Shown: positions 1,184 through 64,000 of the stretch, piece after piece
How the letters are laid out: the number at the start of each line of letters is the position of its first letter
How positions within the stretch are numbered: the first letter of the stretch is position 1
Assembly (NCBI GenBank): GCA_018821985.1
Contig: JAHJKP010000039.1
Coordinates: 62,001-126,000 of the forward strand
Direction of reading: 5' to 3'
Origin: Pseudomonadota bacterium
Lineage (GTDB): Bacteria > Desulfobacterota > Desulfobulbia > Desulfobulbales > Desulfocapsaceae
Length of the DNA: 64,000 nucleotides
Position numbers and translations under genes: made by a program
The notes under the pieces: model-generated
The model's database searches: none
Seen by the model: only the letters and a program-made list of their open reading frames with translations
Told to the model about the DNA's origin: nothing

Positions 1184-2482
1184 TTATCCAGCCTTGACGG
1201 AATAGTAGCTATAGTTGTTTTTCCCCTTCTTTTTCACCTGATACATTGCCTTGTCGGCTTTTTGGACCAGATCATCAACGTGGAGACCATCAACAGGGTA
1301 AACGCTTATCCCGATGCTCACCCCGACCGCGCACTGTGTTTCAGAAACACAAAAAGGTTCATTCAGGCTGTTGATAATTCTTATGCAAAGACTTTCTATT
1401 TCCTCACTCTCGTAAAACTCTCTGACAATAACGGCAAACTCATCACCGCCCAGCCGGGCGACAATATCCATTTGACGGACGGAATGCAGCAGTCTTCTGC
1501 CGACTTCCTTGAGAACCTCATCACCAGCCCTGTGCCCCAGATTATCGTTGATCGCTTTAAAACCATCCAGATCGAGAAAAAAAATGGCGAGTTGAGTTCC
1601 TATCCTTTCCGCAGTGTTGACAGCCTTCTCCAGATGGTCAAGAAAAGATATGCGATTATAGAGTGAAGTGAGTTGGTCATGAAGCGCCAGATATTGGATT
1701 TTTTCGGCCTGTTTTCTTTTTTCGGTAATTTCCTCTTTTATCGCCACATAATGGCGGGGTTTGCCGTCATCATCCATGACAACTGAAATTGTTGCCTTTT
1801 CCCAGTATTCCAGACCATCTTTGGTAAGGTTACAAAATTCACCCTGCCATTCTCTGCCGCTGGTAATAGTTTCCCACATGGATTTATAGAAATCGGAGGA
1901 TTGTTTCCCCGAATTCAATATCCGAGGATTTTTACCTACCACCTCTTCTCTGGTGTAGCCGGAAACTTCAGTGAATTTTGGATTCACATAGGAAATTGAA
2001 CCGTCCAGATCGGTTATAATGACGGAGACAGGACTATACTCCACCGCCCGGGAAAGGATGAGAAGCTGTTCCCTGTTTATTTTCTCTTCCGTTATATCTT
2101 GAACAATACCGTGCATTCGGAGAGGATTCTGTTCTTGATCATAAAACATCTGGCCGGATTCACGAACCCATCGAATAGAACCATCCGGACGAATAATCCG
2201 ATGATCAAAATTAATTTCCTTTTGGTTGAATGCAGACTTAATAGTTTTTTCGACCAGTTCACGGTCATCGGGATGAACCAAGGCCTTAAAAGAATCTAAG
2301 GTGCCTGGAAAGAGGCCCTCCGGGAGATCAAAGATGCGATAAACAGAGTCGGACCAAAAGACTGCTCCGGTCCAGATCTCCCACTCCCAGCTGCCGATAT
2401 TAGCGGCCAACTGGGCAAGGTGGTACCGTTGTTCACTGCACCTTAGATCGTTCTCGGCCTTTTTCCGATGAGTAATATCCAT
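1184..2482 (-). CDS. PAS-PAS-GGDEF diguanylate cyclase, downstream part of amber-interrupted gene
   Basis: Counted from ATG at 2482, residues about 18-130 and 140-260 are PAS/PAC sensor domains (the second with VIITDLDGSISYVNPKF), and the C-terminus is a GGDEF domain. The signature GGDEF lies at residues 345-349, preceded by RQMD at 336-339, an intact RxxD inhibitory site, so an active, product-inhibited c-di-GMP synthase is expected. No Shine-Dalgarno sequence precedes 2482, and the frame upstream of that ATG reads straight back through the end of a PAS domain (EEYVNIYGMDIT) to a TAG at 2552-2554 and then into the 2552-3139 frame. The two parts are therefore best seen as one sensor gene of 652 codons including the final stop, split by one stop codon. 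Whether this part is translated alone is unknown. Confidence 0.75.
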   Translation of the reverse strand: MDITHRKKAENDLRCSEQRYHLAQLAANIGSWEWEIWTGAVFWSDSVYRIFDLPEGLFPGTLDSFKALVHPDDRELVEKTIKSAFNQKEINFDHRIIRPDGSIRWVRESGQMFYDQEQNPLRMHGIVQDITEEKINREQLLILSRAVEYSPVSVIITDLDGSISYVNPKFTEVSGYTREEVVGKNPRILNSGKQSSDFYKSMWETITSGREWQGEFCNLTKDGLEYWEKATISVVMDDDGKPRHYVAIKEEITEKRKQAEKIQYLALHDQLTSLYNRISFLDHLEKAVNTAERIGTQLAIFFLDLDGFKAINDNLGHRAGDEVLKEVGRRLLHSVRQMDIVARLGGDEFAVIVREFYESEEIESLCIRIINSLNEPFCVSETQCAVGVSIGISVYPVDGLHVDDLVQKADKAMYQVKKKGKNNYSYYSVKAG

Positions 2483-2551
2483 GCCATAGATATTGACATA
2501 CTCTTCACCTGGAACCGGAGTTACTGAAAATTGGAAGATCTTCTCACTGAC

Positions 2552-2554
2552 CTA
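2552..2554 (-). other. in-frame amber (TAG) codon inside PAS-GGDEF sensor
   Basis: The frames on either side of this codon are continuous (start positions differ by a multiple of three) and together give an unbroken PAS domain. A single substitution would restore a gene running from 3139 to 1184. No pyl genes or suppressor tRNA are visible in the window. Confidence 0.85.
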
Positions 2555-3139
2555 AAATTCCCGTACTATCGTGACCTGATTGCGGTGAACGGTGGCAATG
2601 GCTGGCTGGAAACAATCGGGCAGGAGGTTTCCTGTTTCAATTCCCCACTGTTTGAGCAGCTGTTGTCCCGCCCTGTTAATATAGAGGGCAATACCCGAGG
2701 AGGAGGCCCGCAGTACCGGATCGGGATCTTCGTCGGGAAATCTGGCAAGATCACAAATCTCTTTTTGGTATTTCTTCTGCAAACTGATATCCCGTACGGA
2801 AGCTAAAATGAGTTCTTTTGCATCCAGGATGAAGGTTTTGGCCTTGATAGCGACATCAAGCATTTCGCCGCTTTTTGTGACAAATTGTGCCTCCAGAATA
2901 TGGCTGTCAGCAGATTTGAGATGTTGTCGAAAAGTCTTGGTGAATTCACCTTCTTGTTCGTGAGCGGGATGAAGTGTACGCTGATGCCTGCCAATCAGCT
3001 CCTCTTTTCCCCAGCCCAAAGCCCCAACCGCGGCTTTATTGCAGTCAACAATGATGCCTGTCTTGGCCTCTGCAACCATTAACATATCCTGAGCTTCATC
3101 AAAAATTTTCTGATATTTATCTTCTTCTTCACAAATCAT
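2552..3139 (-). CDS. PAS-domain N-terminal part of the same sensor, ended by an in-frame TAG
   Basis: Begins at ATG 3139. Residues about 5-120 form a PAS domain (YQKIFDEAQDMLMVAEAKTG, IIVDCNKAAVGALGWGKEEL) with a PAC tail, followed by the first half of a second PAS domain (DPDPVLRASSSGIALYIN). The frame stops at TAG 2552-2554, codon 196, in the middle of that second PAS domain; the rest of the domain continues in the same frame beyond the stop. Alone, this would be a 195-residue soluble sensory fragment without an output module. It looks like a recently broken gene, or a read-through or sequencing artefact, rather than a complete protein. Confidence 0.7.
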   Translation of the reverse strand: MICEEEDKYQKIFDEAQDMLMVAEAKTGIIVDCNKAAVGALGWGKEELIGRHQRTLHPAHEQEGEFTKTFRQHLKSADSHILEAQFVTKSGEMLDVAIKAKTFILDAKELILASVRDISLQKKYQKEICDLARFPDEDPDPVLRASSSGIALYINRAGQQLLKQWGIETGNLLPDCFQPAIATVHRNQVTIVREF

Positions 3140-3784
3140 AAATTTCTATTTTCCACTCACTTTATATCCGATGATGAAATTATGTATATTGATAACAAAT
3201 AGATTGGTCCTGTTTCTTAATATCCACTTAATACTGTTCATTTTTACTTGCTAAGGTTTCAGGGCAATCAGCGGCACCAACAACACACCATGACTGGGCC
3301 TCACGCCAACTTTTAGCTTACTTTTTTTATCAAAAAAATATAACCCCTCGATCCCGATTAGCCCCGACCTTAGACAAACACGAAAAACTTTAATTAACTA
3401 TATGCCCCTGCTAATTTTTCTCCATACCCCGGAGGCGGCACTAACCTGATTTGAGCCGCATGACCCAAGATTTTAAAGGTTTCCTAGAGGTTTACTAAAA
3501 AAACTGACTAAAACAGATGGAAGTTCAAGTGTAGTTAAAAATAAATAATTTTTCAAATAGAGCAAGGGAAGGTGATAAAGGAAGGGAACAGCTGTGCTGA
3601 AACAAAAATCTTTCTTATGGCACCGATGAGTAAGATGCCATATTTGTTCAGGAATAGAATATTGCTTTGCTCTTGCCATAAATCCAGTAAGTCTTCAAGA
3701 CTCAAGATATAATTCAATTTATGTCAGGCAATTGTCATAAAAAAAACTGAAAATCGTTAGGAGCTTACTCCTGACGAGTGAACC
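3140..3784. other. AT-rich intergenic stretch with transposase relic
   Basis: This 645-base gap holds only the decayed RAYT-type transposase start described separately. The remainder is AT-rich with no frame, hairpin terminator or RNA I can support. Confidence 0.5.
3602..3679 (-). pseudogene. relic of REP-associated tyrosine transposase (IS200-like, N-terminus)
   Basis: From ATG 3679 the minus strand encodes MARAKQYSIPEQIWHLTHRC followed by HKKDF. This is the characteristic start of REP-associated tyrosine (Y1) transposases of the Desulfobacterota and Geobacter type (MARAKR..IPG..WHITHRCHKREF). After about 26 residues the frame continues for 40 codons with unrelated low-complexity sequence and lacks the catalytic His-hydrophobe-His and Tyr motifs, so it is a dead 5' fragment. 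It may relate to the inverted repeat at 9298-9396, which has the look of a RAYT-mobilised palindrome. Confidence 0.6.
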
Positions 3785-5146
3785 TTATTTGCTTAAATCG
3801 AGAACGCTCTCCAGTTGACATTGGTTGTTGGTAAAACAAAGGATACTCTTTTCCAGCCTGTCGTAATCAGGATTAAACGTGCCACGCCGCCAATAATCAT
3901 ATTGAAGTTTTTCCCCTTTTTCATCCTTTAAGCTTGCAATATTATTTTCGCTGAAAATGGTTTTTTCCGATCCCTTCTGGCATTTTGCATAGCCATCAAC
4001 ATCGTCTTTCTCTTCGTAGAATTTACAGTTCCGGTACTTACCGTTAACACCGTAGTGTTTGTCTCCAGGGCTCATAGATAGAGCCGTATGGGCGAAGTTA
4101 GCAAATCTGTAAGGAGTACCTTTATAATTCAGTTCAGGACTGTCGAATTCCACCGTTGCAATATCTTTACAAGACGCTAGCGATTGATCTTCCTTCGTAT
4201 ATTTGGTCTTGTACCAGATAAGAGCGCGACGGTCAGCGGTCGTCAGGTCACAGAAAAATTTACGGGCCTCCCTGGCATCAATCGTCTCATCATCAGCACT
4301 GACAGCCATCAGCACAGGAACCTCCAGCGCGTACTTACTGTCAACCAGGCCTTTGGTCAGTTCGTAAAACTCAGCCCCGGCATTCATAGAAAAAGATTCA
4401 TATCGTGCGGCATCTTTCTCATCATATTTGCTCAACCAGTCTTTAACAAATCTCAGAACAGTAGTAGCCCAGGCCAACTTAGTTTTGGCTTTGACGGCCG
4501 TCGACAGCAGAATCAAGCCTTTTATTTTATTTGTACTTTGTCCCTCTTTCATATGCCGTATGGCCAACGCCGTGCCAGTCGAGAATCCAACCAGATACAG
4601 GTCATGAATCTGGTCGATTTTCTGAAAACTTCTCACTCCATAGTCGGTTATTCGCATCCAGTCTTCATGTTTCATCTTCAATGAGTCTCCGGCCACGGTG
4701 CCGTGCCCTGGTAACAACACGGCCCGGATCAAGGCACACGGATAAGCCTTTTGCAGAGAGTCACTGATACTGCGCATTAGATAAGGTGAGTCGGTCAGGC
4801 CGTGGATGAGCAGAAAACCTTTTCCCCCGCCTTTTGATGTGTCCCAACACATATCACTGTCTTTTTCAGGCCACTGAAACGGGCCCCGCATTATTGCCGT
4901 CTCTTCACTCGTATACCCTCCCAGATAGGGACTCTGACCCGATTTAAATCGAAGATCGTCTAAAATCTGTCGAATATTTTCACGACTGTCATGAACATAC
5001 TGCGTAAATTCCGGCTCAGGCTGCCCTGGAACGAAAGCCGCCTTTCCTGTTGGCTGCAACCATTCTGGATTCGAAGAGATGCATGCACCTAAGGCAAGCG
5101 ACACACATACGGTCACAAAAATTGCTTTGATTGTTGAAGCAGTCAT
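3785..5146 (-). CDS. lipoprotein alpha/beta-hydrolase (lysophospholipase/carboxylesterase-like)
   Basis: The 453-residue protein starts at ATG 5146 behind a GGAGAG site. Residues 1-22 form a lipoprotein signal ending in the lipobox LGAC (Cys22), so it is probably membrane anchored. The alpha/beta-hydrolase core shows an oxyanion HG in LLIHGLTDSPY (about 112-122), GHGT (147-150) and the nucleophile elbow GFSTG (187-191, Ser189). An Asp in SADDETID and a His in NFAHTALS could complete the triad. The length exceeds a minimal hydrolase because of a Cys/Lys-rich C-terminal region of about 100 residues of unknown role. The likely reaction is hydrolysis of a lipid or carboxyl ester; the substrate is unknown. 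It stands alone between regulatory genes. Confidence 0.8.
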   Translation of the reverse strand: MTASTIKAIFVTVCVSLALGACISSNPEWLQPTGKAAFVPGQPEPEFTQYVHDSRENIRQILDDLRFKSGQSPYLGGYTSEETAIMRGPFQWPEKDSDMCWDTSKGGGKGFLLIHGLTDSPYLMRSISDSLQKAYPCALIRAVLLPGHGTVAGDSLKMKHEDWMRITDYGVRSFQKIDQIHDLYLVGFSTGTALAIRHMKEGQSTNKIKGLILLSTAVKAKTKLAWATTVLRFVKDWLSKYDEKDAARYESFSMNAGAEFYELTKGLVDSKYALEVPVLMAVSADDETIDAREARKFFCDLTTADRRALIWYKTKYTKEDQSLASCKDIATVEFDSPELNYKGTPYRFANFAHTALSMSPGDKHYGVNGKYRNCKFYEEKDDVDGYAKCQKGSEKTIFSENNIASLKDEKGEKLQYDYWRRGTFNPDYDRLEKSILCFTNNQCQLESVLDLSK

Positions 5147-6364: not shown

Positions 6365-6799
6365 ATTTCCTCTCTATACTCCTTCTACCAGATTGGGTCC
6401 TCATACCCTCGTGTCAAATCAAACTCGTGAAAGCTATATTTTTCATTATTGTTATTATCAAATTAATGTCAAGAGAAAAAATATCCCAAACAATATCGAA
6501 ACAATAGCCTTATTTGCACAAATAAATTAACTCAAATGTTAATTTATATACATTTTGCTAATAAATTTCACTTGCACTAGCTAACAAATAACGTTATTTT
6601 AGCAATCATTCCTATTACAGTATTAACAAGTGAGCAAGAAAGAGAAAATCTACCCCAAATTGCCCTAGCGAAACAGGAGTGTTTTTAGTCGGCAAGCTCT
6701 GGATTCATCAAAGCATGGAGGGGTTTAATAAATATTTTAGCTGAAAACACTTTTATCTGTCACTGACACAGTGAAACCCTTAACCAATTGGAGATTACA
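6365..6799. promoter_or_regulatory. AT-rich divergent promoter region
   Basis: The stretch between the XRE-PAS regulator and the exported repeat protein is very AT-rich, with repeated TAATTTAT/AATAAATT-type words around 6520-6570 that could be operator half-sites. No exact -10/-35 pair or named riboswitch is convincing. Inference: it holds both divergent promoters and the regulator's binding sites. Confidence 0.4.
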
Positions 6800-7957
6800 A
6801 TGATGCAAAAAATCTTGGGCGGCTTTGTCCTGGCCCTCACCCTTATTTTTTCAGCTTCCCCCGGCAACGCCACCCTTACCACTGATCTGCAGGACCTGGT
6901 GGCCCAGGAAACAATCATGCGTGATCAACTGGCAGACATCAGCGTCAACCAGGGTGGAACCTGCACCCAGCTTGGCACACTCAACACCTCCATGGAAGAA
7001 TATCTGGCCATGGTAACAAGTGTCATCAGCCAGCTTACGATCCCGGTTACCCTGACCAGCACGGATGCCATATCCCTGGACACCCTTTCCACCCTCACCA
7101 CGGAGATGGCGGCCGATTCTGTTCGTCTGTCCTGGGAATTGCGTAACATCGAAAATGTGGCCGAGCTGTTCGAATACCGGGCTGCCCTGAGCGCCATGCT
7201 CCGGTTGTCAGATGATATCGGCAAGATGGCCGACAGAATTCTCGAGATGGCGGACCGCATCCTCGTCATGGCGGACAATATCGGCGCCATGGCCGATCGT
7301 ATTCTCATCACCCAGCAGCTGCAGAACAGCAATGTGGCCCTGACCCAGGCATCCATCCTCACTACCCAGACCAATATGGTGGCCATGAGCGACAGCCTTT
7401 CCTCCATTGCCTATAATATGACTTTAGGGCTGGTGAAGACCGATGCGGTTGTGTTGGAAAACGACATGGGGGCAACGACGCTCACCAGCGTCAACATGGC
7501 GACGGAATTGGATAGCCTTGCAGCCAGGACATCCCTCCTTCTTGCCGGCACAGAGAGTCTTTACACCCTGATCAACCAGAACAGCCAGTCTGCCAGTCAC
7601 TTTATCAATAGCGACACCCTGACCTTACTGGGCGATCTTTCCACCATTAACAAGGCCTTATCCCTCTCGCTGGAGGCCTATGCCAACACCATCAACCAGA
7701 TCGCACCGCTCACCCAGATTCCTGTCCTCTCCGATGCCACCGCCAGCATGCTGCGCCTTACCACCGACATCGGTAAGATGTCTGACCGGATCATGGAGAT
7801 GACCGACAAGATCATCGTTATGGCAGACAATATCGGCTTGATGAGCGACCGGATTGTCACGACCCAGGATTTGCAACAGACCAATATAGAGCTGACCGGG
7901 GGCTCGCTGCTCACCGCCCAGAGTGTCACCCTCACTGTGATAAAAAACTTCCTTTAA
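6800..7957 (+). CDS. exported heptad-repeat protein, paralogue 1
   Basis: I choose ATG 6800, preceded by GGAG at 6790-6793; an upstream TTG at 6788 overlaps that site. Residues 1-25 are a signal peptide (ILGGFVLALTLIFS, cleavage near GNA). The mature protein is Thr/Leu/Met-rich and almost entirely amphipathic helix. Two copies of one block occur (about residues 132-190 and 315-375). Each starts with LRLSDDIGKM and continues with exact seven-residue steps (MADRILE, MADRILV, MADNIGA), then an ITQQLQNSN tail. Heptads of this kind suggest a rod or helical bundle in the periplasm or outside the cell. I recognise no family or enzyme motif. The neighbour at 7992 is a paralogue, so this looks like a tandem duplication in one operon controlled by the divergent XRE-PAS gene. 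Confidence 0.7.
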   Translation: MMQKILGGFVLALTLIFSASPGNATLTTDLQDLVAQETIMRDQLADISVNQGGTCTQLGTLNTSMEEYLAMVTSVISQLTIPVTLTSTDAISLDTLSTLTTEMAADSVRLSWELRNIENVAELFEYRAALSAMLRLSDDIGKMADRILEMADRILVMADNIGAMADRILITQQLQNSNVALTQASILTTQTNMVAMSDSLSSIAYNMTLGLVKTDAVVLENDMGATTLTSVNMATELDSLAARTSLLLAGTESLYTLINQNSQSASHFINSDTLTLLGDLSTINKALSLSLEAYANTINQIAPLTQIPVLSDATASMLRLTTDIGKMSDRIMEMTDKIIVMADNIGLMSDRIVTTQDLQQTNIELTGGSLLTAQSVTLTVIKNFL

Positions 7958-7991
7958 AATAAGCATATTGACATCTAACGGAGACACAAAT

Positions 7992-9164
7992 ATGAAAAAT
8001 AAGATCAAGAACGTATTTTTTGTTGCCCTCTTTATAGCGGCAGGCCTTTGGCTTCATCCGACCAACTCACAGGCCACTTTGCTTGATGATCTGAATGGGC
8101 TGGTGGCCCAGTCCCAGGCCCTTGACACCCAGCTCAAGGATATCACCCTGACCGGCGACACGGTCTGCGGCCCACTGGTTGCGGCCAATCAAGCAGCCCG
8201 TGATCTTGTCAACAATATCACCCAGATTGACCAGGGGCTCGCCGCCCACTTGCAGGTGGATGTGGATATCCTCACCGCCCTCAATCAACTGGCAGCCCTG
8301 ACACCGAACCTTGCCAGCGAGAACCTTCGCCTCTCCGTTGACCTGCAGACCCTGTCACAGACAGGACAGGCCATAACCATCAAGGATGGCATTGTGGCCA
8401 TGCTCCAACTCTCCGATGATATCGGCACCATGGCCGACCGCATTGGTGAAATGGCAGACAAGATCCTGGTCATGTCCGACAATATCGGTCTCATGGCCGA
8501 TCGTATCATTGCCACCCAGGAGATCCAAAACGAGAATATACAGCTCACCCAGCAGTCAATTTTGCAGACCCAGACCAATATGCTGACCGTGACTTCTCTG
8601 GTAGAGACCAGTACCAACGACCTGACCCTGGATCAGTTGGTGATTGATGGCAATCTGCTGGCGGCCAAGATGGTGGCAGTGATCTTAAACCCATTTACCA
8701 TGAAGACACAGCTTGCTACGGTGGCCACCGATGTCCAAACCTTTCTTGCCAAGGTGACCACCGCTTACGGAACCATCGCCCAGCAGTCGGCAACCAGCAC
8801 CATGTACATCAACACCACCTCCCTGACCAGCCTGGCGAATGTCTCCATTATGCTCACCTCGTTGACCACGGCCGTTGACGGCTATGTCATCGCCATTGAC
8901 GCCCTGAAAAACATAACCTCCAGCACCAGCCTTTCAGCCTCGCTCAAGAGCATGTTGCAGCTTTCTGCTGATATCGGAGTCATGGCCAACCGCATCCTGG
9001 AGATGGGAGATCTGATTCTGGCCATGGCGGACAATATAGGCATGGAGGCGGACCAGATCCTGATTACTCAGCAATTACAGAATGCCAACGTGGCCACGGT
9101 GCAGACCTCGATCCTGGCAGCTCAGGATCTGGCAATCACTATTATTGCCGCTCGGAATTTATGA
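7992..9164 (+). CDS. exported heptad-repeat protein, paralogue 2
   Basis: ATG 7992 is preferred: GGAGACACAAAT lies directly before it and it opens a signal peptide (NVFFVALFIAAGLWL, cleavage near SQA). The mature part has the same layout as the gene upstream: LLDDLNGLVAQ near the N-terminus, then two blocks of LSDDIGTMADRI, MADKILV, MSDNIGL, MADRII and QEIQNENIQLTQ (about residues 130-190 and 320-385). One Cys near residue 52 matches a Cys in paralogue 1, and both are preceded by a similar short segment. The 34-base gap suggests co-transcription with 6800-7957. Function unknown; a structural or surface role is inferred from the repeats and export only. Confidence 0.7.
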   Translation: MKNKIKNVFFVALFIAAGLWLHPTNSQATLLDDLNGLVAQSQALDTQLKDITLTGDTVCGPLVAANQAARDLVNNITQIDQGLAAHLQVDVDILTALNQLAALTPNLASENLRLSVDLQTLSQTGQAITIKDGIVAMLQLSDDIGTMADRIGEMADKILVMSDNIGLMADRIIATQEIQNENIQLTQQSILQTQTNMLTVTSLVETSTNDLTLDQLVIDGNLLAAKMVAVILNPFTMKTQLATVATDVQTFLAKVTTAYGTIAQQSATSTMYINTTSLTSLANVSIMLTSLTTAVDGYVIAIDALKNITSSTSLSASLKSMLQLSADIGVMANRILEMGDLILAMADNIGMEADQILITQQLQNANVATVQTSILAAQDLAITIIAARNL

Positions 9165-9396: not shown

Positions 9397-9523
9397 TTTC
9401 AAACATCAGAATCGGGATAAATAAAAAAATAATTTACTTTAGTTTCAAGCAATTACCGCAAGTCAACCACAGCAGGAGCAGGAGACAGCTTCCCTCCCTG
9501 GCAAGCTTGCCTGATTATGCAGC

Positions 9524-9680
9524 TTGTAATGAGACCCATGAGACCGCACATTCTGCATCTTCCGCACCAATATAGGCCGTATCGCTGGTAATGGTGACGG
9601 AAAGATTCATCGTCCGCTTCACCAGCGCCGCCAATTCTTGGATACTTGCCCAAGGAAACTGAACAACCGACACCGGCAGC
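9524..9680 (-). pseudogene. partial duplicate of yaeQ (3' part only)
   Basis: About 155 bases match the 3' part of the complete yaeQ at 12110-12266 at roughly 90% identity by eye, in the same orientation and 2587 bases away (encoded VQFPWASIQELAALVKRTMN in both). Beyond 9680 the similarity stops abruptly and unrelated sequence follows. A chimeric frame continues to 9865 but overlaps the metallo-hydrolase gene and has no family support. This is the scar of an insertion or recombination event, not a working gene. Confidence 0.75.
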
Positions 9681-12083: not shown

Positions 12084-12638
12084 TCAAACGAAAACTGGAC
12101 CCCTTGTTTCTTGTAATGACACCCAGGACACCGCACATTCCGCATCGTCTGCGCAAATATAGGCAGTATCGCCGGTAATGGTGACGGAAAGATTCATCGT
12201 CCGCTTCACCAGCGCCGCCAATTCCTGGATACTTGCCCAAGGAAACTGAACCACCGACACCGGCAACTCATTGAACTTCGCCTGTCCCTGTGCCCACCAG
12301 GTATCCGATTTTGAATTAAAGCTATAGATCTTAACTGCCGGCGAAAGTCGGCTTGCTTTTTTTATTCTGTCAACAGTTGGCTCCCCCACATCGATCCACA
12401 ATGATAGTCGATCATCCAAGGTGCGCGCCCAGATATCAGGTTCCTCCACGGCGCACAGTCCTTTGGTAAAGGCCAGATACTCCTGAGCGTTCAGACAAAA
12501 GGCCAGAATACGAGCCATCATGCGCTCAAGTGTTTCAGAAGGGTGTTGAGCAACCGTTAAAGTGAGCGTATCATAATAATCTCGGTCGGTATCAGCCAAG
12601 GTAATTTTTAATTTATAAATTGTCGGTTTCAATGCCAT
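12084..12638 (-). CDS. yaeQ: YaeQ family protein
   Basis: 184 residues, the usual YaeQ length, starting MALKPTIYKLKITLAD at ATG 12638. Diagnostic segments include YYDTLTLTVAQHPSETLERMM, WIDVGEP and PWASIQEL. YaeQ is a compact protein whose structure has been compared with the PD-(D/E)XK nuclease fold; here E66 (in VEEPDIW), D82 (WIDVGEP) and K93-K94 (RIKKASR) fall in the region of the proposed site. Its biological role is not settled (in E. coli it was first linked to RfaH-related haemolysin transcription). A 3' fragment of a second copy lies at 9524-9680, so sequence between the copies was gained or rearranged. Confidence 0.9.
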   Translation of the reverse strand: MALKPTIYKLKITLADTDRDYYDTLTLTVAQHPSETLERMMARILAFCLNAQEYLAFTKGLCAVEEPDIWARTLDDRLSLWIDVGEPTVDRIKKASRLSPAVKIYSFNSKSDTWWAQGQAKFNELPVSVVQFPWASIQELAALVKRTMNLSVTITGDTAYICADDAECAVSWVSLQETRGPVFV

Positions 12639-40761: not shown

Positions 40762-42417
40762 TTATTTTTCCTCGACAATCCGGCCCTCAACAACAGGTGC
40801 CACGGGTGAGTCCTTGGCCAGGACATCGAGGACCACATCCCGCAGGAACCCGCCGGGATCATTATACACCAGCCTACTGCTGCGCATGGCCCCACCAATT
40901 TCGACAAAATCGCCACCACTTCTGATAGCCTGCCCAAAGGCTGTGTAACCATCACCTCCGGCTGCTATAAAATCAAGGGTGGCCACGCTATATTCCTGCT
41001 GCGGATCAATGGGATGGCCGCCGACCGTGGCTGACACAATCCGCTGCCCCACCGGCAGGCGGCGATCAAAAACAAAAGTCATTCCGGATACCTGAGGGAA
41101 ACGCCCCTCTCCCCGCTCCACCCCTGAGACCCCATGTTCCAGAGTCTCCAGCAGGAGATTGCCGCTCATCTTTACTGCCACCAGATAACTATTGAAAGGA
41201 AGGGCGGCATAGATCTGACGAAAAGTAATCTCCCCCTTATTCAGGCCGGTACGCAAACTGCCCCCGTTGACCAGGGCCGCCTGCGCTCCCGTGGTACTGC
41301 GGACGATATCGGCCACCAGATTCCCCAGATTAGTCTCCTGTTGACGCACCCCTTTCTGAATCAGGTCAACGTTGGTTTCCCCACCTTTCTGATTCAAGAT
41401 GATATCAACCTGGGCATTATATCGCTTCACCAGCGCCGCTATTTCCGGATCATCCCCCCCAGGTGCAGGAACTATCTCATCAAGTCGGCCTTCGACCGCT
41501 ACCAGTTGTCCCTGTTCAACGGTCATATCGACCACGCCCAGGAATCTGCCGTGGTCTCCTGCCTGCACCACCACTGCACAATTTCCGATCCGTACCGGCG
41601 TTTTCACCTCGGTATGAGAATGGCCGCCCACTATCAGGATCGGCACATCAAGGGCATCCGGCCCTTGACAGAGATTTTTCGCCAGCGCCAGATCCTGTTC
41701 ATAACCGATATGGGTCAACAACACGAACAAACCGGTATTCTTTTTCATGGCAGTCAGCTGCTCCCGCGCGACCTGCAATGGTGGGGAAAAACTCAATCCC
41801 TGGGTATTTCGGGGATGAGAGCTCTGAGGAACGTCATCGGTCACCAGACCAATGACGGTCACCTTCCCAGCCGGAAGGTTGAAAGAAGCGTGAGGATGCA
41901 CCCCAGGCAAGCCTTGTACATTGGCGGCCAGAACAGGAAAACTGGCCTCACTGATCCGCTTTTTAAGCACATCCTGGCCAAAATCATATTCATGATTGCC
42001 AGTCACCATGGCATCAAGATGCAACTGATTCAACAGGGCAATAGTGGAATAGCCCTGTGAAAAATTTGTCCAGGTATCCCCTTGGATCATATCTCCTGCT
42101 GCCAGAAAGAGACCCGGCTGTTCAGTTCTGAGTCGTTTCAAACGGGAAGCCAGCCAGGCGATACCTCCCTGTTGACCTTTTCCCCCTGAAAGTTGCGTAG
42201 GATTGGCAAAGCCATGAAAGTCGTTGATATAATAAATTCGAAAAGTGGTGGGAACGGCGACGACCAAAGATGGACTAATGCCGTCGGAACCAGGGCTGGC
42301 GGGAACGGCGACGGCCAGGGATGGACTAATGCCGTGAGAGCCAGGGATGGTGGGAGCGGCCCAGCTTGGCACAGAGATATTCAACAACAGGAGCAGACCA
42401 AGAGCAATGACTTTCAT
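40762..42417 (-). CDS. periplasmic 5'-nucleotidase/UshA-like metallophosphatase with 17-residue repeats
   Basis: From ATG 42417 (GAGGGG before it) the protein has a signal peptide (VIALGLLLLLNISVPSWA). The metallophosphatase core shows INDFHGF, GDMIQGDTW, GNHEYDFG and GGHSHTE, and the C-terminal 5'-nucleotidase domain has NGGSLRTGLNKGEITF. It removes phosphate from nucleotides (and perhaps 2',3'-cyclic ones) in the periplasm. Oddly, about 40 residues between signal peptide and core are two 17-residue repeats (PGSHGISPSL, PGSDGISPSL) encoded by the 51-bp element at 42250-42361, here read from the opposite strand to the copies in the GlgC and RACE genes. Confidence 0.88.
   Translation of the reverse strand: MKVIALGLLLLLNISVPSWAAPTIPGSHGISPSLAVAVPASPGSDGISPSLVVAVPTTFRIYYINDFHGFANPTQLSGGKGQQGGIAWLASRLKRLRTEQPGLFLAAGDMIQGDTWTNFSQGYSTIALLNQLHLDAMVTGNHEYDFGQDVLKKRISEASFPVLAANVQGLPGVHPHASFNLPAGKVTVIGLVTDDVPQSSHPRNTQGLSFSPPLQVAREQLTAMKKNTGLFVLLTHIGYEQDLALAKNLCQGPDALDVPILIVGGHSHTEVKTPVRIGNCAVVVQAGDHGRFLGVVDMTVEQGQLVAVEGRLDEIVPAPGGDDPEIAALVKRYNAQVDIILNQKGGETNVDLIQKGVRQQETNLGNLVADIVRSTTGAQAALVNGGSLRTGLNKGEITFRQIYAALPFNSYLVAVKMSGNLLLETLEHGVSGVERGEGRFPQVSGMTFVFDRRLPVGQRIVSATVGGHPIDPQQEYSVATLDFIAAGGDGYTAFGQAIRSGGDFVEIGGAMRSSRLVYNDPGGFLRDVVLDVLAKDSPVAPVVEGRIVEEK
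42250..42361 (+). repeat. 51-bp element, two tandem units (locus C)
   Basis: Units 42250-42300 and 42301-42351 plus ten bases of a third. The core GATGGACTAATGCCG appears in both. Against the reverse complement of the 63001 copy I count 41 and 43 identical positions of 51. The host gene reads the complementary strand of the element. Confidence 0.85.
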
Positions 42418-42452
42418 ATTCCCCTCATATCGCTGTGGGACAAAGAGACCCA

Positions 42453-43340
42453 TCAATTTTTATGCAGCAACAGCATGAGCCAAGGCAGAGATTTGGAAGT
42501 TGCTGCTGCCGTAAACTTGGCCTCAGGCACATACTGCTTGATAAAATCTACAAATGCCGAACTGCGGGTATAAACCCCATAATAGCCATTTTCTGCCTGA
42601 CAATCCGCACCATAGGAAACAAGGCCCACATGCACCCATTGCCCATCGACCTTGAGCATCATGGGACCGCCGCTATCGCCAGAGCAGGCATCCTTAGCCA
42701 CCGGATATCCAGAACAAAGCTGTGAGCCTGACAATATGACCCAATATCCACTATTACAATACCAGTCTGCAATTACGGGTAGATTAACCTGTTGCAACCT
42801 GCTGGGATAATACAAGCTTGTCGTCGTATCAGCGAGCCCCCAACCGACAAGGGTGGTCATCTGGCCCAGAAGTTGCGAATCAATCCCCTGCACCGAAGCA
42901 CCGGAGAAGATGGTGATAGGTTGCTGGGCTGACGTACTATTCAATTCAAGCAGGGCGATATCATTGGCAGCAAAACTCACATAGGCAGGATGTTTGACAA
43001 TCCTTTTCACCGCAATCCTCGTCCCACTCCAGTTGGTCAGGTCATTGACGCCAACCGCAACCTGAATGTCGCTGGCCGACTTCCCTTCAACACAATGACC
43101 GGCAGTCAGCACCCAATTGGAGGCAATCAGTACCCCCCCACAGTATTGGGCATAATACAAATCAGGTTCACCGGCGTATAAAATTGCCGTCATCCATGGC
43201 CAATCTCCGCTGGAGGCTTCATAGCCACCAATAATCTGAGGGACAGCTGGTAGCACACTGGAGGATTCAGCTGCTTGCTCAGCAGCATAAAGTGTCTGAC
43301 TGAAAAAAATTACTAAAAGAATCAGCACTAAATTTTTCAT
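42453..43340 (-). CDS. secreted trypsin-like serine protease
   Basis: Starting at ATG 43340 (an upstream ATG at 43361 adds seven residues) the protein has a signal peptide (LVLILLVIFFSQTLYA). The mature chymotrypsin-fold domain begins near IIGGYEASSGDWPWM. The triad is visible as LTAGHC (His), NDIALLE (Asp) and ACSGDSGGPM (Ser); Asp at the start of DACSGDSGGP suggests trypsin-like cleavage after Arg/Lys. Cys pairs could make disulfides. Such S1 proteases are uncommon in anaerobes of this group. A C-terminal hydrophobic stretch (LPWLMLLLHKN) follows, possibly a sorting or anchor tail. Confidence 0.88.
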   Translation of the reverse strand: MKNLVLILLVIFFSQTLYAAEQAAESSSVLPAVPQIIGGYEASSGDWPWMTAILYAGEPDLYYAQYCGGVLIASNWVLTAGHCVEGKSASDIQVAVGVNDLTNWSGTRIAVKRIVKHPAYVSFAANDIALLELNSTSAQQPITIFSGASVQGIDSQLLGQMTTLVGWGLADTTTSLYYPSRLQQVNLPVIADWYCNSGYWVILSGSQLCSGYPVAKDACSGDSGGPMMLKVDGQWVHVGLVSYGADCQAENGYYGVYTRSSAFVDFIKQYVPEAKFTAAATSKSLPWLMLLLHKN

Positions 43341-58636: not shown

Positions 58637-59902
58637 TTACACAGACTCACCGTCCAGAACTTCATTTCCCGAATAGGCATCATAATGGGTATGAGAGTTG
58701 ATAATGCAATTGCGTCCCACTATCAGGCCCGCAGGGACTACGGCCTCTTTGCCAATCAGGGTAATCCCGGTATAGAGATGAGTCGGTTGCTTTCGATTAG
58801 GGATATGATGATTGCTCCCCGAACCGACCACCGCGCCCGATCCCACATGAACCCGTTTATCAAAAATAGCAAGATCAACTGAAGCACCAGTATCCACCAC
58901 GCAATCGGCAAAAAGAATGGAATTTTTGACCACGGCCCCATGTTCAACCACCACCCCGGGGGCCAGGACTGAATTGATCACCGTTCCCTTGACGGTACAA
59001 CCTGCGGAGATCATGGAGCCTTTGACAACAGCCTCGGACCCGTAACGGGCCGGTGCCCGGTCAGCTCGCCGCTCTTCAGCCTCTACATTGGTTCGTATCC
59101 CCCATTTCTCAGGCGAAATTCCACTCTCCGGCTTCAGGAGATCCATATTGGCCTCCCAATACGCTTGGACCGTACCCACATCTCGCCAATACCCATAAAA
59201 GGGATAGGCGAAGACATTATCATTCTCAATAGCCCACGGCAGGATATGCATGCCGAAATCGACATCATCGCGATTTCTTGCCAGAGTATCCAGCAGATAA
59301 CGCCGATTAAAGACATAAATACCCATGGAGGCAAGATTGGTCCGGGGATTTTTGGGTTTTTCTTCCCAGTCAATTATCCGATTCTCGCTATCGATAACCC
59401 CGGCACCAAACTGATGAATTTCACTCTTGGAAACCACCATCATAGCCACGGTCACATCGGCCTTCTTATAACGATGATACTCAAGCATGGCATGGAAATC
59501 CATGTGGTAGATATGATCACCGGAAAGCAGCACCACCTCATCGGCTGGATTTGCCTCCAGAAAATCAATATTCTGCCGCACCGCATCCGCTGTGCCCTTG
59601 TACCAGTCAGAATCCTTAAAACCGGTGCGAGGAGGAAGGATCTTCACCCCGCGGCTCCGACCGGTGAAATCCCAGGCCTCACCCGTACCGATATGTTTCA
59701 TCAGAGAAAGTGGCTTATACTGGGTCAAAACCCCGACCTTTGTCAGCCCTGAGTTCATGACATTGCTGAGGCTGAAATCAATGATCCGGTACAGCCCGCC
59801 AAAGGGCACGGCCGGTTTGGCACGGCTCTGAACCAGGATATTCAAGCGACTGCCAACCCCGCCGGCCAACAACAAAACCAAGGCGTCTTGTCTCCAATTC
59901 AT
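58637..59902 (-). CDS. glgC: glucose-1-phosphate adenylyltransferase
   Basis: 421 residues from ATG 59902, with GAGAGGTGG before it, overlapping the stop of the paralogue upstream (ATGA). The nucleotide loop LLAGGVGSRL and AKPAVPFGG near the start, SGDHIYHMD, IDWEEKP and KPSNP-like PKNPRTNLASMGIYVF, GYWRDVGT and the left-handed beta-helix C-terminus (VVKGSMISAGCTV, VLAPGVVVEHGAVV, IIN) are those of GlgC. It makes ADP-glucose from ATP and glucose-1-phosphate, the first step to glycogen. It is the catalytic partner of a pair. Confidence 0.93.
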   Translation of the reverse strand: MNWRQDALVLLLAGGVGSRLNILVQSRAKPAVPFGGLYRIIDFSLSNVMNSGLTKVGVLTQYKPLSLMKHIGTGEAWDFTGRSRGVKILPPRTGFKDSDWYKGTADAVRQNIDFLEANPADEVVLLSGDHIYHMDFHAMLEYHRYKKADVTVAMMVVSKSEIHQFGAGVIDSENRIIDWEEKPKNPRTNLASMGIYVFNRRYLLDTLARNRDDVDFGMHILPWAIENDNVFAYPFYGYWRDVGTVQAYWEANMDLLKPESGISPEKWGIRTNVEAEERRADRAPARYGSEAVVKGSMISAGCTVKGTVINSVLAPGVVVEHGAVVKNSILFADCVVDTGASVDLAIFDKRVHVGSGAVVGSGSNHHIPNRKQPTHLYTGITLIGKEAVVPAGLIVGRNCIINSHTHYDAYSGNEVLDGESV

Positions 59903-61203
59903 CGTACCACCTCTCCGGCCGTCACTTTCTCTTTCCACTGCTCGGCAGGCAGATGGGGATCGATGGTGGCTCCTTCGCCAATGACCGTCCCTGGAGGGAT
60001 CTGATTATTCCAGCCGATCACCGTCACCGCTCCCGACATCCCAGGTTGCCGCGGCATTAGGCCGTCCTTGGCCGTCACCCGCGCGTCCTCCTCTCCTACC
60101 CTCGGTCCGACAGAGACTCCCGCACCAAAAACACTGTTCACATCGGCCACGACCTTGTTCAGAGAACAATTCTCGCCAATGACAGTATTAAAAAAGAGGA
60201 CAGACTGGTCCACCACCGCCCCCTTTTCCACTCGCACCCCAGGAAAGAGGATTGAATTCCGCACCTCTCCCTCAATCACACACCCATTATAGATCATACT
60301 GTTCTGGACAGTGGCCGTTTCCCTGACCAGAGTGGGCTGAACATCACAGATACCCCGATGGGCAAGGTTGGTTCGCACCCCCCATTTTTCCATATCAATC
60401 TTTGGATTTTCACCCAAGAGATCCATATTGGACTGCCAGTATTCTTCAATTGTTCTGGTATACCCCCAATATCCCTGATGTTTGTACCCATAAACCCGGC
60501 AGTTCTGCTCCATAAGCATAGGGATGATGTCCCGCCCGAATTCATAGGAATTCTTACCATGATTCTCCTCCAAGGCACGACAGAGGACCTCGGGCCGGAA
60601 ACACAAGACCGTGAGTGAGGCCCAACGGGACTGAGGTTCTACTGGTTTTTCCCAGTAGGAAAGTACCCTCCCCCCCCGCTCCCCGTCTTCATCATCGAGT
60701 GCCGCCACCCCGAAACGGTGGGCCTTATCCAAGGGCACCTGAATAAGACCGAGGGTCAGATCCGCCTTCTTTTCGTGGTGATAAGCGATCATCTTCCGGT
60801 AATCCATATTATAGATATGGTCTCCTGAAAGGATCAGGATCTCTTCCGGCTGATGATAGCGGACAAAATCAAGGTTTTTGTAAACAGCATCAGCAGACCC
60901 CAGATACCAGTCCGCGCTGTCCATATCCTTGAAAGGGGGAAGGATTGAGATGCCGCGATTGCGGCCGATCATATCCCATGCCGCTCCGGTACCGATATGA
61001 TTAATGAGGGAAAAACTCCGATATTGGCTGAGAATGGCAATCCGTTCAATACCGGAATTCATCAAATTGCTCAGGGCAAAATCGATAACCCGGCAGAATC
61101 CCCCAAAAGGCACGGCTGATTTCGGGCGATAACAGGTAAGAACGTCCAATTCATCAACCCGGCTGCCCGCCAGAATCATCGCAAGCGTGGAAGGTGTGTT
61201 CAT
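59899..61203 (-). CDS. GlgC/GlgD-like paralogue with altered nucleotide loop and 17-residue insert
   Basis: 434 residues, clearly homologous to its neighbour (PKSAVPFGGFCRVIDFALSN, SLINHIGTGAAWD, LSGDHIYNMDY, GYWGYTRTIEEYWQ) but with the ATP-binding loop AGSRVDELDVLT in place of AGGxGTRLxxLT. In the GlgC/GlgD family such a loop goes with a non-catalytic, regulatory subunit, so this may be a GlgD-like partner of 58637-59902. At about residues 376-392 the beta-helix is interrupted by TAKDGLMPRQPGMSGAV, exactly one 51-bp element (60023-60073); without it DARV would join TVIGWNN. It overlaps the next gene by four bases, so the subunits would be made in equal amounts. Confidence 0.88.
   Translation of the reverse strand: MNTPSTLAMILAGSRVDELDVLTCYRPKSAVPFGGFCRVIDFALSNLMNSGIERIAILSQYRSFSLINHIGTGAAWDMIGRNRGISILPPFKDMDSADWYLGSADAVYKNLDFVRYHQPEEILILSGDHIYNMDYRKMIAYHHEKKADLTLGLIQVPLDKAHRFGVAALDDEDGERGGRVLSYWEKPVEPQSRWASLTVLCFRPEVLCRALEENHGKNSYEFGRDIIPMLMEQNCRVYGYKHQGYWGYTRTIEEYWQSNMDLLGENPKIDMEKWGVRTNLAHRGICDVQPTLVRETATVQNSMIYNGCVIEGEVRNSILFPGVRVEKGAVVDQSVLFFNTVIGENCSLNKVVADVNSVFGAGVSVGPRVGEEDARVTAKDGLMPRQPGMSGAVTVIGWNNQIPPGTVIGEGATIDPHLPAEQWKEKVTAGEVVR
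60023..60078 (-). repeat. 51-bp element, single unit (locus B)
   Basis: One unit (60023-60073), with GTCAC at its start repeated directly after its end (60074-60078). It matches the unit at 63001 at 45 of 51 positions by my count. It keeps the host frame (17 codons). Confidence 0.85.
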
Positions 61204-62563: not shown

Positions 62564-64000
62564 CTATTCTTTCTGCTCTGCAAAGAGAGGAACGGAGGGG
62601 AAAAGTGAAGGATCAGTATGGGGAATAAAACGTGCCCCGGAGAAGCGTATCATGAATTCCTGGTTCACATTCAATTCGACATAGGTGATCTTAGAGACAA
62701 TATCCAGACACTCCTGCCTTGCTGACTGCTCCAACAGAACCTGTTCAGCTCCCCGAAGCGAACTGTTGCCAATTGCCCTATAGACCGACAGATCCAGATC
62801 AGGAAGCATCCCCAGGGTTATTGCCTGCTGCGGATTGATATGATTGCCGAAGGCTCCAGCCACACAGATCTCAGCCAAGTCAACAAAAGCAAGCCCCACC
62901 TGATTTACCAGGGTAGCCAGAATCGCATACATGGCGGCCTTGGAGCGAATCATCGCATCCAGATCAATCTGCTCAAGCAGCACCTCGTCACCACCACCCT
63001 CCTTGGCCGTCACCGCTCCCGCCTTCCCTGGCTCCCGCGGCATTAGGCCATCCTTGGCCGTCACCGCTCCCGCCTTCCCTGGCTCCCGCGGCATTAGGCC
63101 ATCCTTGGCCGTCACTACGACAAAGGCCCGCTGTCCATCCCGTTCCACAATCCGCTGCCGCATAAAGGCCGCGCGAACCGGATCACTCTCCTTGGCCGGG
63201 TCTCTGAATTTTCCACGGATATCAATGATCCTGGCCAGATAGAGCGAGGCCACAAGATCAATCAGACCGGAACCGCAGATGCCACGCGCCGGGGCGCCAT
63301 CAATGGTTTTCACCTCCATTGAATATGTCTCGGGGTTAATGGAGACGTACTCAATGGCGCCAGGCGCTGCCCGCATCCCCATCCTGGCCACCCCACCTTC
63401 AAGTGCCGGACCGGCAGCCCCGGCACAGGCAATAAGCCAGTCCTGATTTCCCAAAACCACCTCGGCGTTGGTACCCACGTCAATCAGCATCCTCGTCTGT
63501 TCGGATGCGGCCATACCCGAGGCAAGAATCCCTGAAATCAGATCTCCACCAAAATAACTGCCAATGGAGGGCATAATCCACACCGGGGCGGCCTGATGCA
63601 GGATCAGTCCGAGTTCCCGGCTCTCCATGGGTTCAATAGCGTTCACCATGGGGATATAAGGTTCCCGGCAGATATGAAAAGGATCAAGGCCGAGGAGGAG
63701 ATGGGTCATGGTTGTATTACCGGATACCGACAGCGCCCGGATCTCACCGGCCTCCACCCCACTGCCTGCAACCAGTTCAGCCGTCAGAGTATTGATACAG
63801 GCAACAATACTCTGCTGCAGGACAGCAAGACCCGGGTCCATGAAGGAGAGATCTATCTCCCGCATCTGCCTCCTCACGTTGGTGGCCTGATGGATACGAC
63901 TGAGGATATCAGCCCCATATTCGATCTGGCTGTTTTCACGCCCCGCGGACGAAAGAATCCGGCCGGTCAACAGATCCACCAGGTTCGCCTCCAGATGAGT
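62564..64000 (-). CDS. RACE/ASKHA-domain protein for corrinoid enzyme activation (5' end outside window)
   Basis: The minus frame is open from 64000, reading THLEANLVDLLTGRILSSAG, YGADILSRI, ALSVSGNTTMTHLLLGL, LIDVGTNAEVVLGNQ, CAGAAGPALEGG, GICGSGLIDLVA and AGAFGNHINPQQAI. These are the motifs of RACE proteins (reductive activators of cobalamin-dependent enzymes), which use ATP and an N-terminal 2Fe-2S cluster (outside the window) to reduce corrinoid cofactors. Partners are often methyltransferases of methylated compounds, not visible here. Between VVV and EGGGDEV there are two tandem copies of the 17-residue repeat (TAKDGLMPREPGKAGAV), encoded by the 51-bp element at 63001-63115. Confidence 0.9.
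   Translation of the reverse strand, partial: THLEANLVDLLTGRILSSAGRENSQIEYGADILSRIHQATNVRRQMREIDLSFMDPGLAVLQQSIVACINTLTAELVAGSGVEAGEIRALSVSGNTTMTHLLLGLDPFHICREPYIPMVNAIEPMESRELGLILHQAAPVWIMPSIGSYFGGDLISGILASGMAASEQTRMLIDVGTNAEVVLGNQDWLIACAGAAGPALEGGVARMGMRAAPGAIEYVSINPETYSMEVKTIDGAPARGICGSGLIDLVASLYLARIIDIRGKFRDPAKESDPVRAAFMRQRIVERDGQRAFVVVTAKDGLMPREPGKAGAVTAKDGLMPREPGKAGAVTAKEGGGDEVLLEQIDLDAMIRSKAAMYAILATLVNQVGLAFVDLAEICVAGAFGNHINPQQAITLGMLPDLDLSVYRAIGNSSLRGAEQVLLEQSARQECLDIVSKITYVELNVNQEFMIRFSGARFIPHTDPSLFPSVPLFAEQKE
63001..63115 (-). repeat. 51-bp element, two identical tandem units (locus A)
   Basis: Units 63001-63051 and 63052-63102 are identical, followed by 13 bases of a third. Perfect identity suggests recent duplication. 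The unit itself holds two copies of GCTCCCGC spaced 17 bases apart. Confidence 0.9.

Follow-up and report, generated by a model that had tools for sequence, protein, structure and literature searches.

How does one and the same stretch of 51 bp come to reside in three unrelated genes? This question is raised by the window analysed here (the whole stretch of DNA, 64,000 nucleotides in length), which belongs to a 3.3-Mb Desulfocapsaceae genome. The gene for a RACo-like protein (RACE; 62564-63979, minus strand; PF14574 and PF17651 by Pfam) carries two identical tandem units of the kind denoted A below, both on the minus strand. The first, at 63064-63114, has the order YGAC, hairpin 1, TAAT, hairpin 2, with edges re-read from copies that have differing right flanks, and the second, at 63013-63063, is supported by sequence and by tandem-repeat detection. 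In the register used by the initial annotation, which had reported this pair, the units span 63011-63112 of the minus strand and encode the 17 residues TAKDGLMPREPGKAGAV twice, between FVVV and (TAKE)GGGDEV; their identity agrees with its suggestion that the pair is recent. The right edge of the array, TGACGGCCAAGGA (63000-63012, minus strand), is either a partial third unit or the native target; the corresponding stretch in insert-free orthologues reads GC[T/G]GCCARGGACGG (L052, L058) or ATGGCCATGGATGG (L053). In a structure model of the protein, the insert, at about residues 290-323, is placed in or beside a predicted disordered loop between two strands, residues 294-330 having pLDDT below 50.

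The second host, a GlgC-like nucleotidyltransferase (59899-61203, minus strand; PF00483 by Pfam), contains a single A-type unit at 60027-60077 (minus strand) that is identical to the RACE unit in 45 of 51 positions (88%, match at 60025-60075). The third, a 5'-nucleotidase (40762-42456, minus strand; PF02872 and PF00149 by Pfam), contains two tandem A-type units on the plus strand, one at 42258-42308, right after what looks by eye like a signal peptide, and the other, recognised by sequence match, at 42309-42359; they share 41 and 43 of 51 positions with the RACE unit (80-84%, match at 42260-42361). The further copies had thus been correctly described as some 80-90% identical, and the tandem arrangement is borne out by Tandem Repeats Finder, which reports period 51 at both 63000-63115 and 42246-42360. 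The implied idea of one peptide shared by the three hosts is not supported: the 5'-nucleotidase copies, being antisense to their gene, encode a peptide, AAPTIPGSHGISPSLAV.., other than that of RACE and GlgC, and the family at large uses four frames on both strands.

The window has other repeats as well. Four copies of a 196-nt block (7193-9144; 62-72% identity; spacing 552/652/552) span two adjacent ORFs (6788-7957 and 7968-9164), which are tandem paralogues with repetitive coding sequence. Separate from the 51-bp family is a direct repeat of 156 bp (9523-9678 and 12110-12265; 92% identity, 2587 bp apart).

Host genes, reading frames and empty sites

The family is far beyond chance in this genome. 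A BLAST search with the unit finds 15 places at E values under 1e-3, the best being 5.9e-56, and a gapped pattern allowing at most three mismatches has 23 matches in the whole genome, compared with none for the reversed control pattern. A sequence model (R1) of 54 positions, built from 20 aligned copies, recognises at least 45 places at E<=1, at least 37 of them at E<=0.003, a few of these places being parts of one copy. All counts from genome searches are lower bounds, with 150 candidates per genome scored in this genome and in the search of its genus, its family and some other families, and 22 per genome in the order-wide search. Rfam has no match at the unit in the nine loci searched.

What do these copies reside in? 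A total of 463 kb of the genome was scanned, comprising the window and 20 stretches around copies and hence not a random sample, and 26 of the 31 arrays found there lie within ORFs that match a Pfam family over cutoff; UppP, outside the scanned 463 kb, is a 27th host. The hosts include CbiB, CCA-transferase, TatD, HypE, RecC, RecD, FtsQ, MurG, a P-type ATPase, TsaD, Mfd and N-acetylmuramoyl-alanine amidase. In three of the hosts the unit is at the extreme N- or C-end, and there its coding status is less certain. Of the other five arrays, three appear to be carried by MITEs, another lies in an ORF of 175 aa that has no family, and the last is a weak match. From the arrays with period 51 alone, one might think of a minisatellite confined to its locus, of common ancestry of the three genes or of an artefact of assembly. 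We consider these explanations all but untenable, because the unit is dispersed over 26 host ORFs whose Pfam families are unrelated and recurs in 15 of 17 separately assembled genomes of the genus, with single copies and clean empty sites.

The unit is present in both orientations relative to the host genes. Among the 27 hosts, four reading frames are used 11, 8, 6 and 2 times, and the remaining two are not used at all; these two contain stops in the A form and are open in two B consensus forms. It had been pointed out that all copies keep the frame of the host, and the inserts are indeed in frame, but for an insertion of 51 bp this is automatic, so that the informative point is rather that two of the six frames are not seen in use. 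Should one suppose, then, that selection on proteins maintains the peptide as a functional module? The B consensus leaves two frames open that are yet unused, a hint that the peptide may matter a little. Nevertheless, with four different peptides encoded from both strands in unrelated enzymes, with orthologues in close relatives that do without the unit, and with a copy number that ranges, at a single site, from 0 to 4, such selection appears very improbable as the explanation of the repeat.

Two cases from other genomes concern ORFs without an assigned family. In G048, two ORFs without a Pfam family (L384:1072-2202 and 2181-3998) have units in the same frame, and one of them contains three tandem 54-bp copies of a distinct variant. 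In G026, a genome from another family, a unit close to the consensus lies in frame towards the C-end of an ORF of 597 aa in locus L167; the ORF looks helicase-like by eye and has no Pfam family at 1e-5.

The most telling evidence comes from orthologues of the host genes, most of the genomes compared being MAGs or other assemblies. The insert in CbiB is found in this genome alone, none of the 22 other aligned orthologues having it. The CCA-transferase gene has exactly 51 extra bp, that is, one A unit; its counterpart in G015 has two units and that in G009 four A units, the first of which holds a nested B unit. Ten of the 13 aligned orthologues of the genus are empty at this site, nine of them with TGAC at the insertion point (G001/L353 was left out of the alignment, and G011 did not align at the site). 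In MurG, where the insert lies between two glycosyltransferase Pfam domains, a B unit is present in this genome and in G006, in decayed form in G016, and as two tandem copies in G002 and G012; nine genomes of the genus and six outgroups have no insert (G030 and G031, with split matches, were left out). HypE has a B unit in this genome, G012 and G015, an A unit at the identical point in G014, short remnants in G003, G010 and G005, and no insert in seven genomes of the genus and seven outgroups. For RACE, 21 of the 80 fetched loci were aligned at the site (L060 and L061, whose ranges end in ordinary stop codons, were left out of the protein alignment), and the only insert among these orthologues, in L054, is an A unit split by a B unit, a composite of the same kind as the one at C51:69328 of our genome. 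The GlgC site has 0, 1 or 2 units in the relatives listed. In GlgC and M20 (the latter aligned without fragments L368-L372), insert-free genes retain 12-17 bp of the unit, which may represent scars or prior similarity rather than virgin sites. The orthologues from outside the genus, as aligned and among those listed, have no insert.

Because the hosts are unrelated, both orientations and four frames are in use, and orthologues in close relatives have empty sites among those listed, the contention of the initial annotation that the repeat spread as DNA between unrelated genes is well supported, and its two proposed checks, a genome-wide search for further copies and an alignment of the hosts with their orthologues, both came out in its favour. 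To the extent that such a history can be read from sequences, it is nearly certain that exact 51- and 54-bp insertions absent from close relatives reflect spread as DNA, and mobility at the DNA level is itself nearly certain.

Two hairpins and the mode of movement

The unit comes in two forms, A with period 51 and B with period 54. The A form consists of YGAC, hairpin 1 (GGCC-AAGGAY-GGCC), TAAT and hairpin 2 (GCCGC-GGGA-GCCA-GGGA-TGGC-GGGA-GCGG); the B form consists of CGCA, hairpin 1, CAGT and a hairpin 2 with the end GAGCGAC. Comparison of copies with differing right flanks sets the edges of A at YGAC and GAGCGG; this comparison of edges and flanks kept 161 rows, with copies that have insertions, gaps or short flanks left out, and the motif filter for A retained 77 rows, which omit A copies with a changed linker, including the CCA-transferase copy. 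Both hairpins have GCCARGGAYGGC-like cores in the same orientation. Inspection of the edges and folds of the unit revealed no terminal inverted repeats.

Are the hairpins real? In an alignment made without regard to structure (105 distinct rows), pairing is preserved in 90.6% of 806 cells, and 32 cells are altered on both sides, compared with 5.5 expected by shuffling, a number that none of 500 shuffles reaches; the covariation score is 0.168, compared with at most 0.078 for slid versions. Compensation is exemplified by the change of GGCC/GGCC to GGAC/GTCC in hairpin 1 and of GCCA/TGGC to TCCA/TGGA in hairpin 2. The final pair of the inner stem of hairpin 2, one of eight pairs in all, fails in 40 of the 105 rows. 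Folded as DNA, five of the six strands tested are more stable than their shuffled versions (z -2.6 to -3.7), and one B strand is no better (z -1.0). Thus, the view that the unit is not obviously palindromic has to be abandoned: it contains imperfect palindromes, namely, two predicted hairpins that are backed by covariation.

So what kind of entity could this be? In our opinion, the facts taken together are probably best explained by a small mobile element of DNA, non-autonomous and with two hairpins, that would move in the manner of Y1-type elements. The unit enters as a whole and in either orientation; its ends are sharp, the insertion point is often immediately ahead of YG, and there is no consistent long target duplication. 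Since its length is a multiple of three and most frames are open, the recipient gene gains 17 or 18 residues and the ORF stays open. Copies then expand head to tail or receive other copies within themselves (B inside A); others decay, or have no counterpart at the corresponding site in relatives. The proposed enzymatic step, transposition as single-stranded DNA by a Y1 HUH transposase of the IS200/IS605 or RAYT type that acts in trans, is more tentative, being a plausible suggestion that falls somewhat short of probable. Under this scenario, insertion beside an existing unit would yield tandem arrays.

The grounds for suggesting a Y1 enzyme are the hairpins with tetranucleotides at their feet, the lack of a consistent duplication and the insertion at a short motif, all of which fit the single-strand model. 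IS200/IS605-like (Y1) elements are not known to cause a target-site duplication. At the sites with an insert-free counterpart, YG follows the insert in four of five cases (CCA-transferase, CbiB, MITE-1 and HypE; CA follows at MurG), and it does so at all three sites read without a counterpart (B in A, MITE-2 and the P-type ATPase); the bases upstream vary. Target duplication at MurG (read in G002) and at the MITE is at most 1 bp. Several A insertions in our genome have YGAC on both sides (CCA-transferase, CbiB, GlgC, rhodanese and the array ends in RACE and UppP). Hairpins close to both ends, with a tetranucleotide at their foot, are the criterion given for IS200/IS605-like (Y1) elements (PMC6006769), and the unit has them, the Y1 and REP criteria used here being drawn from this source and PMC8266576. 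Y1 transposases are encoded in all 17 genomes of the genus (75 matches, RAYT-like ones being recognised by eye among the loci fetched). Against the Y1 step, none of the 30 Y1 loci examined, out of the 75 matches, has a unit within 1.5 kb, and G016 has a single short Y1 fragment match against at least 28 copies of the unit. The orientation of the unit agrees with 20-kb GC skew, a proxy for lagging-strand insertion, in 21 of 31 cases, a proportion that we count neither for nor against the model.

Two candidate regularities were not retained. A 4-bp target duplication as a rule was dropped: among 42 non-tandem A copies, 4 have identical 4-bp flanks, a little more than the 1.7 expected by chance (p 0.047), and a duplication of 1-4 bp may nonetheless occur. 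The apparently stronger agreement with GC skew among A copies alone was set aside, this subset having been chosen after the data were seen.

The main rival to the Y1 step is recombination at short similarity, in which a displaced strand or repair template containing the unit would anneal and be copied in by the host machinery (template switching or microhomology insertion), with no dedicated enzyme required. Indeed, the empty A-type sites of CbiB and CCA-transferase share 7-11 of 13-15 bases with the end of the unit (P 0.0003-0.03 relative to random genome positions, five sites having been tried), GCCARGGAYGG or a close form is common to the cores of the unit and the RACE site of three insert-free orthologues, and the insert-free GlgC and M20 genes contain the 12-17 bp mentioned above. 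Such similarity is, however, lacking at three B-type sites (MITE, HypE and MurG; P 0.21-0.84), and recombination alone does not call for identical ends at unrelated sites or for hairpins that are kept by compensatory change. On balance, we regard host recombination as rather unlikely and continue with the two-hairpin mobile element as the preferred explanation.

MITEs, phages and possible spread between lineages

The unit also occurs outside genes. In 20 of the 30 top loci of G015, a B unit lies within a MITE-like element of about 160 bp (MITE-1). Eight loci (L055, L026, L006, L057, L054, L052, L124 and L046) have copies of MITE-1 without the unit; judged by eye, those in L054, L057 and L124 seem to occupy one position in different species, and the flanks of the unit-bearing MITE-1 copy of our own genome (L001) place it at that position, again by eye. 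The existence of unit-free MITE-1 copies implies that the unit invaded the MITE. In G048, from another family, an A unit lies in a second, unrelated MITE-like element (MITE-2), both ends of which were recognised in eight of the 11 regions tested (14 were fetched). Two MITE families have captured the unit and multiplied it between genes.

The location of the unit in the middle of MITE-1, along with the second case in G048, makes it legitimate to ask whether the units in genes are internal fragments left behind by MITEs that inserted and subsequently lost their arms. This possibility appears quite improbable considering that MITE-1 itself was invaded, that the two MITEs, unrelated to each other, hold units of different subfamilies, and that no arms are found beside in-gene copies among the loci searched. 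A mobile unit that is independent of its MITE carriers is thus again the reading we prefer.

Some additional small elements were observed along the way. A unit-free MITE-like element of about 106 bp, TTAGGAGCCGTTACG..., with a fold z of -5.8, is present at L055:910-1015, in L193 and in 19 other loci of G015, and in several genomes of the genus. The MITE-borne B unit of L001 (about 2790-2983, minus strand) has an extra short hairpin-like sequence in place of part of hairpin 2, possibly a third kind of tiny insert. At L199:1048-1097 there is a short MITE derivative that is scarcely more than its two ends.

How far has the unit traveled? Within the genus, it is found in at least 14 of the 16 other genomes at E<=0.01, the two misses being only 55-63% complete. 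None of the eight genomes sampled from other genera of the family has it, and at least two of 13 from other families do (among 150 candidates scored per genome). Across the order, at E<=1e-6 and with 22 candidates scored per genome, it is present in at least 31 of 257 genomes, 15 of the 17 in the genus and 16 over 13 other genera. Outside the genus, the unit scores above 60 bits. In G210, a near-consensus unit in the P-type ATPase gene lies, by eye, at the point where the gene of our genome has a decayed one. Phage genes, too, have units in them or next to them: a viral contig whose genes include portal, terminase and Mu F-like ones carries a unit directly after the F-like ORF, the stop codon of which is in the edge of the unit, and in G125 a phage terminase gene has a unit at its start. 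Among viral sequences, the exact A pattern was found in one viral contig and the B pattern in none; searches of plasmid and phage collections did not find the unit. The taxonomic scatter, the phage copies and the scores above 60 bits outside the genus suggest that the unit may move horizontally between lineages, and units in or beside phage genes could be carried between families.

A bolder hypothesis, which we entertain as possible and put forward with still greater reserve than the Y1 step, would combine these threads: the unit would be an active selfish element, neutral to the reading frame, in the form of a single-stranded transposon of 51/54 nt with two hairpins. Its length, its open frames and the mildness of its peptides would allow it to build up in essential genes, RAYT-type enzymes resident in the genomes would mobilise it, landing on its own edge would give rise to arrays, and unrelated MITEs and phages would carry it across families. 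It would then be a new system beside the Rickettsia palindromic elements (RPEs), REPs and ERIC-type repeats.

Known repeats compared and implications

Which known repeats does the unit resemble? RPEs, to which it had been likened from the outset, are short mobile repeats that occur between genes as well as in frame within conserved proteins that are unrelated; as described in PMC2229807, they are 105-146 bp long, have terminal inverted repeats and come from Rickettsia. The analogy is apt in that the unit, too, inserts in frame into unrelated protein genes. It differs in being 51 or 54 bp long, in having two hairpins in direct orientation and no terminal inverted repeat rather than one long palindrome, in forming head-to-tail arrays, and in residing in environmental Desulfobulbales-type genomes. 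The ERIC/RU repeats of enterobacteria offer a further case of in-frame intragenic fusions of a non-autonomous repeat (PMC2229807), and the unit, likewise non-autonomous, is fused in frame within genes; unlike the unit, they are MITE-like, 103-168 bp long, and without 51-bp tandem modules. The unit differs from MITEs in general in its lack of terminal inverted repeats, though it is carried inside two MITE-like elements.

REPINs are inverted pairs near their RAYT. The unit resembles REPIN/RAYT (TnpA_REP) systems in being a doublet of short hairpins in a genus with RAYT-like Y1 genes (by eye), but its hairpins are direct, and no unit was found near the 30 Y1 loci examined. Compared with GTAG REPs and REPINs, it lacks GTAG, has feet YGAC/CGCA and TAAT/CAGT, and its hairpins are not inverted. 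It also lies mostly in genes, at least in the stretches of our genome examined, whereas most REPs are intergenic. Intragenic REPs with GTAG or CGTC tags have been described in 'O. terrae' and R. conorii as hairpins of tens of bp with a tetranucleotide tag, sometimes inside uvrA and recB (PMC3733652). By the account in the same source, CGTC REPs have a stem of 8-9 bp with AT pairs first, a loop of 4-5 nt, a CGTC tag and a CCA tail, and their dimers are mostly inverted (HH); the stems of the unit, in contrast, measure 4-5 bp and include an internal loop, its hairpins are direct, and it lacks a CCA tail. CGTC does adjoin hairpin 1 on the reverse strand, in A units only. The unit does not fit the structural definitions of RPE, GTAG REP, CGTC REP, REPIN or MITE, and is best read as an analogue of RPEs and intragenic REPs that falls outside the membership of either. 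No description of such a family was found in open-licence PubMed Central papers; accordingly, the proposal of an undescribed protein-coding mobile repeat is retained in its first part and qualified in its second, because the repeat is not purely coding and has multiplied in two MITEs.

An element of 51-54 letters has been copied into dozens of unrelated, often essential genes in an uncultured sulfur bacterium and its relatives, adding 17 or 18 residues without breaking the gene, a rare natural record of selfish DNA living inside proteins. Such protein-internal selfish DNA was previously known mainly from Rickettsia and from some REP and ERIC-type repeats; new here are the environmental bacteria, the empty sites in close relatives, the two orientations and the four frames. 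The double capture by MITEs, together with the phage copies, presents a minimal element that makes use of larger ones. On a practical note, inserts of 17 or 18 residues could be mistaken for protein domains or alignment errors. Given the empty sites, both orientations and four frames, and given that the hosts include well-studied enzymes with solved homologues, such as MurG, HypE and RACo, one can measure directly how well enzymes tolerate random peptide insertions and how new segments of proteins are born.
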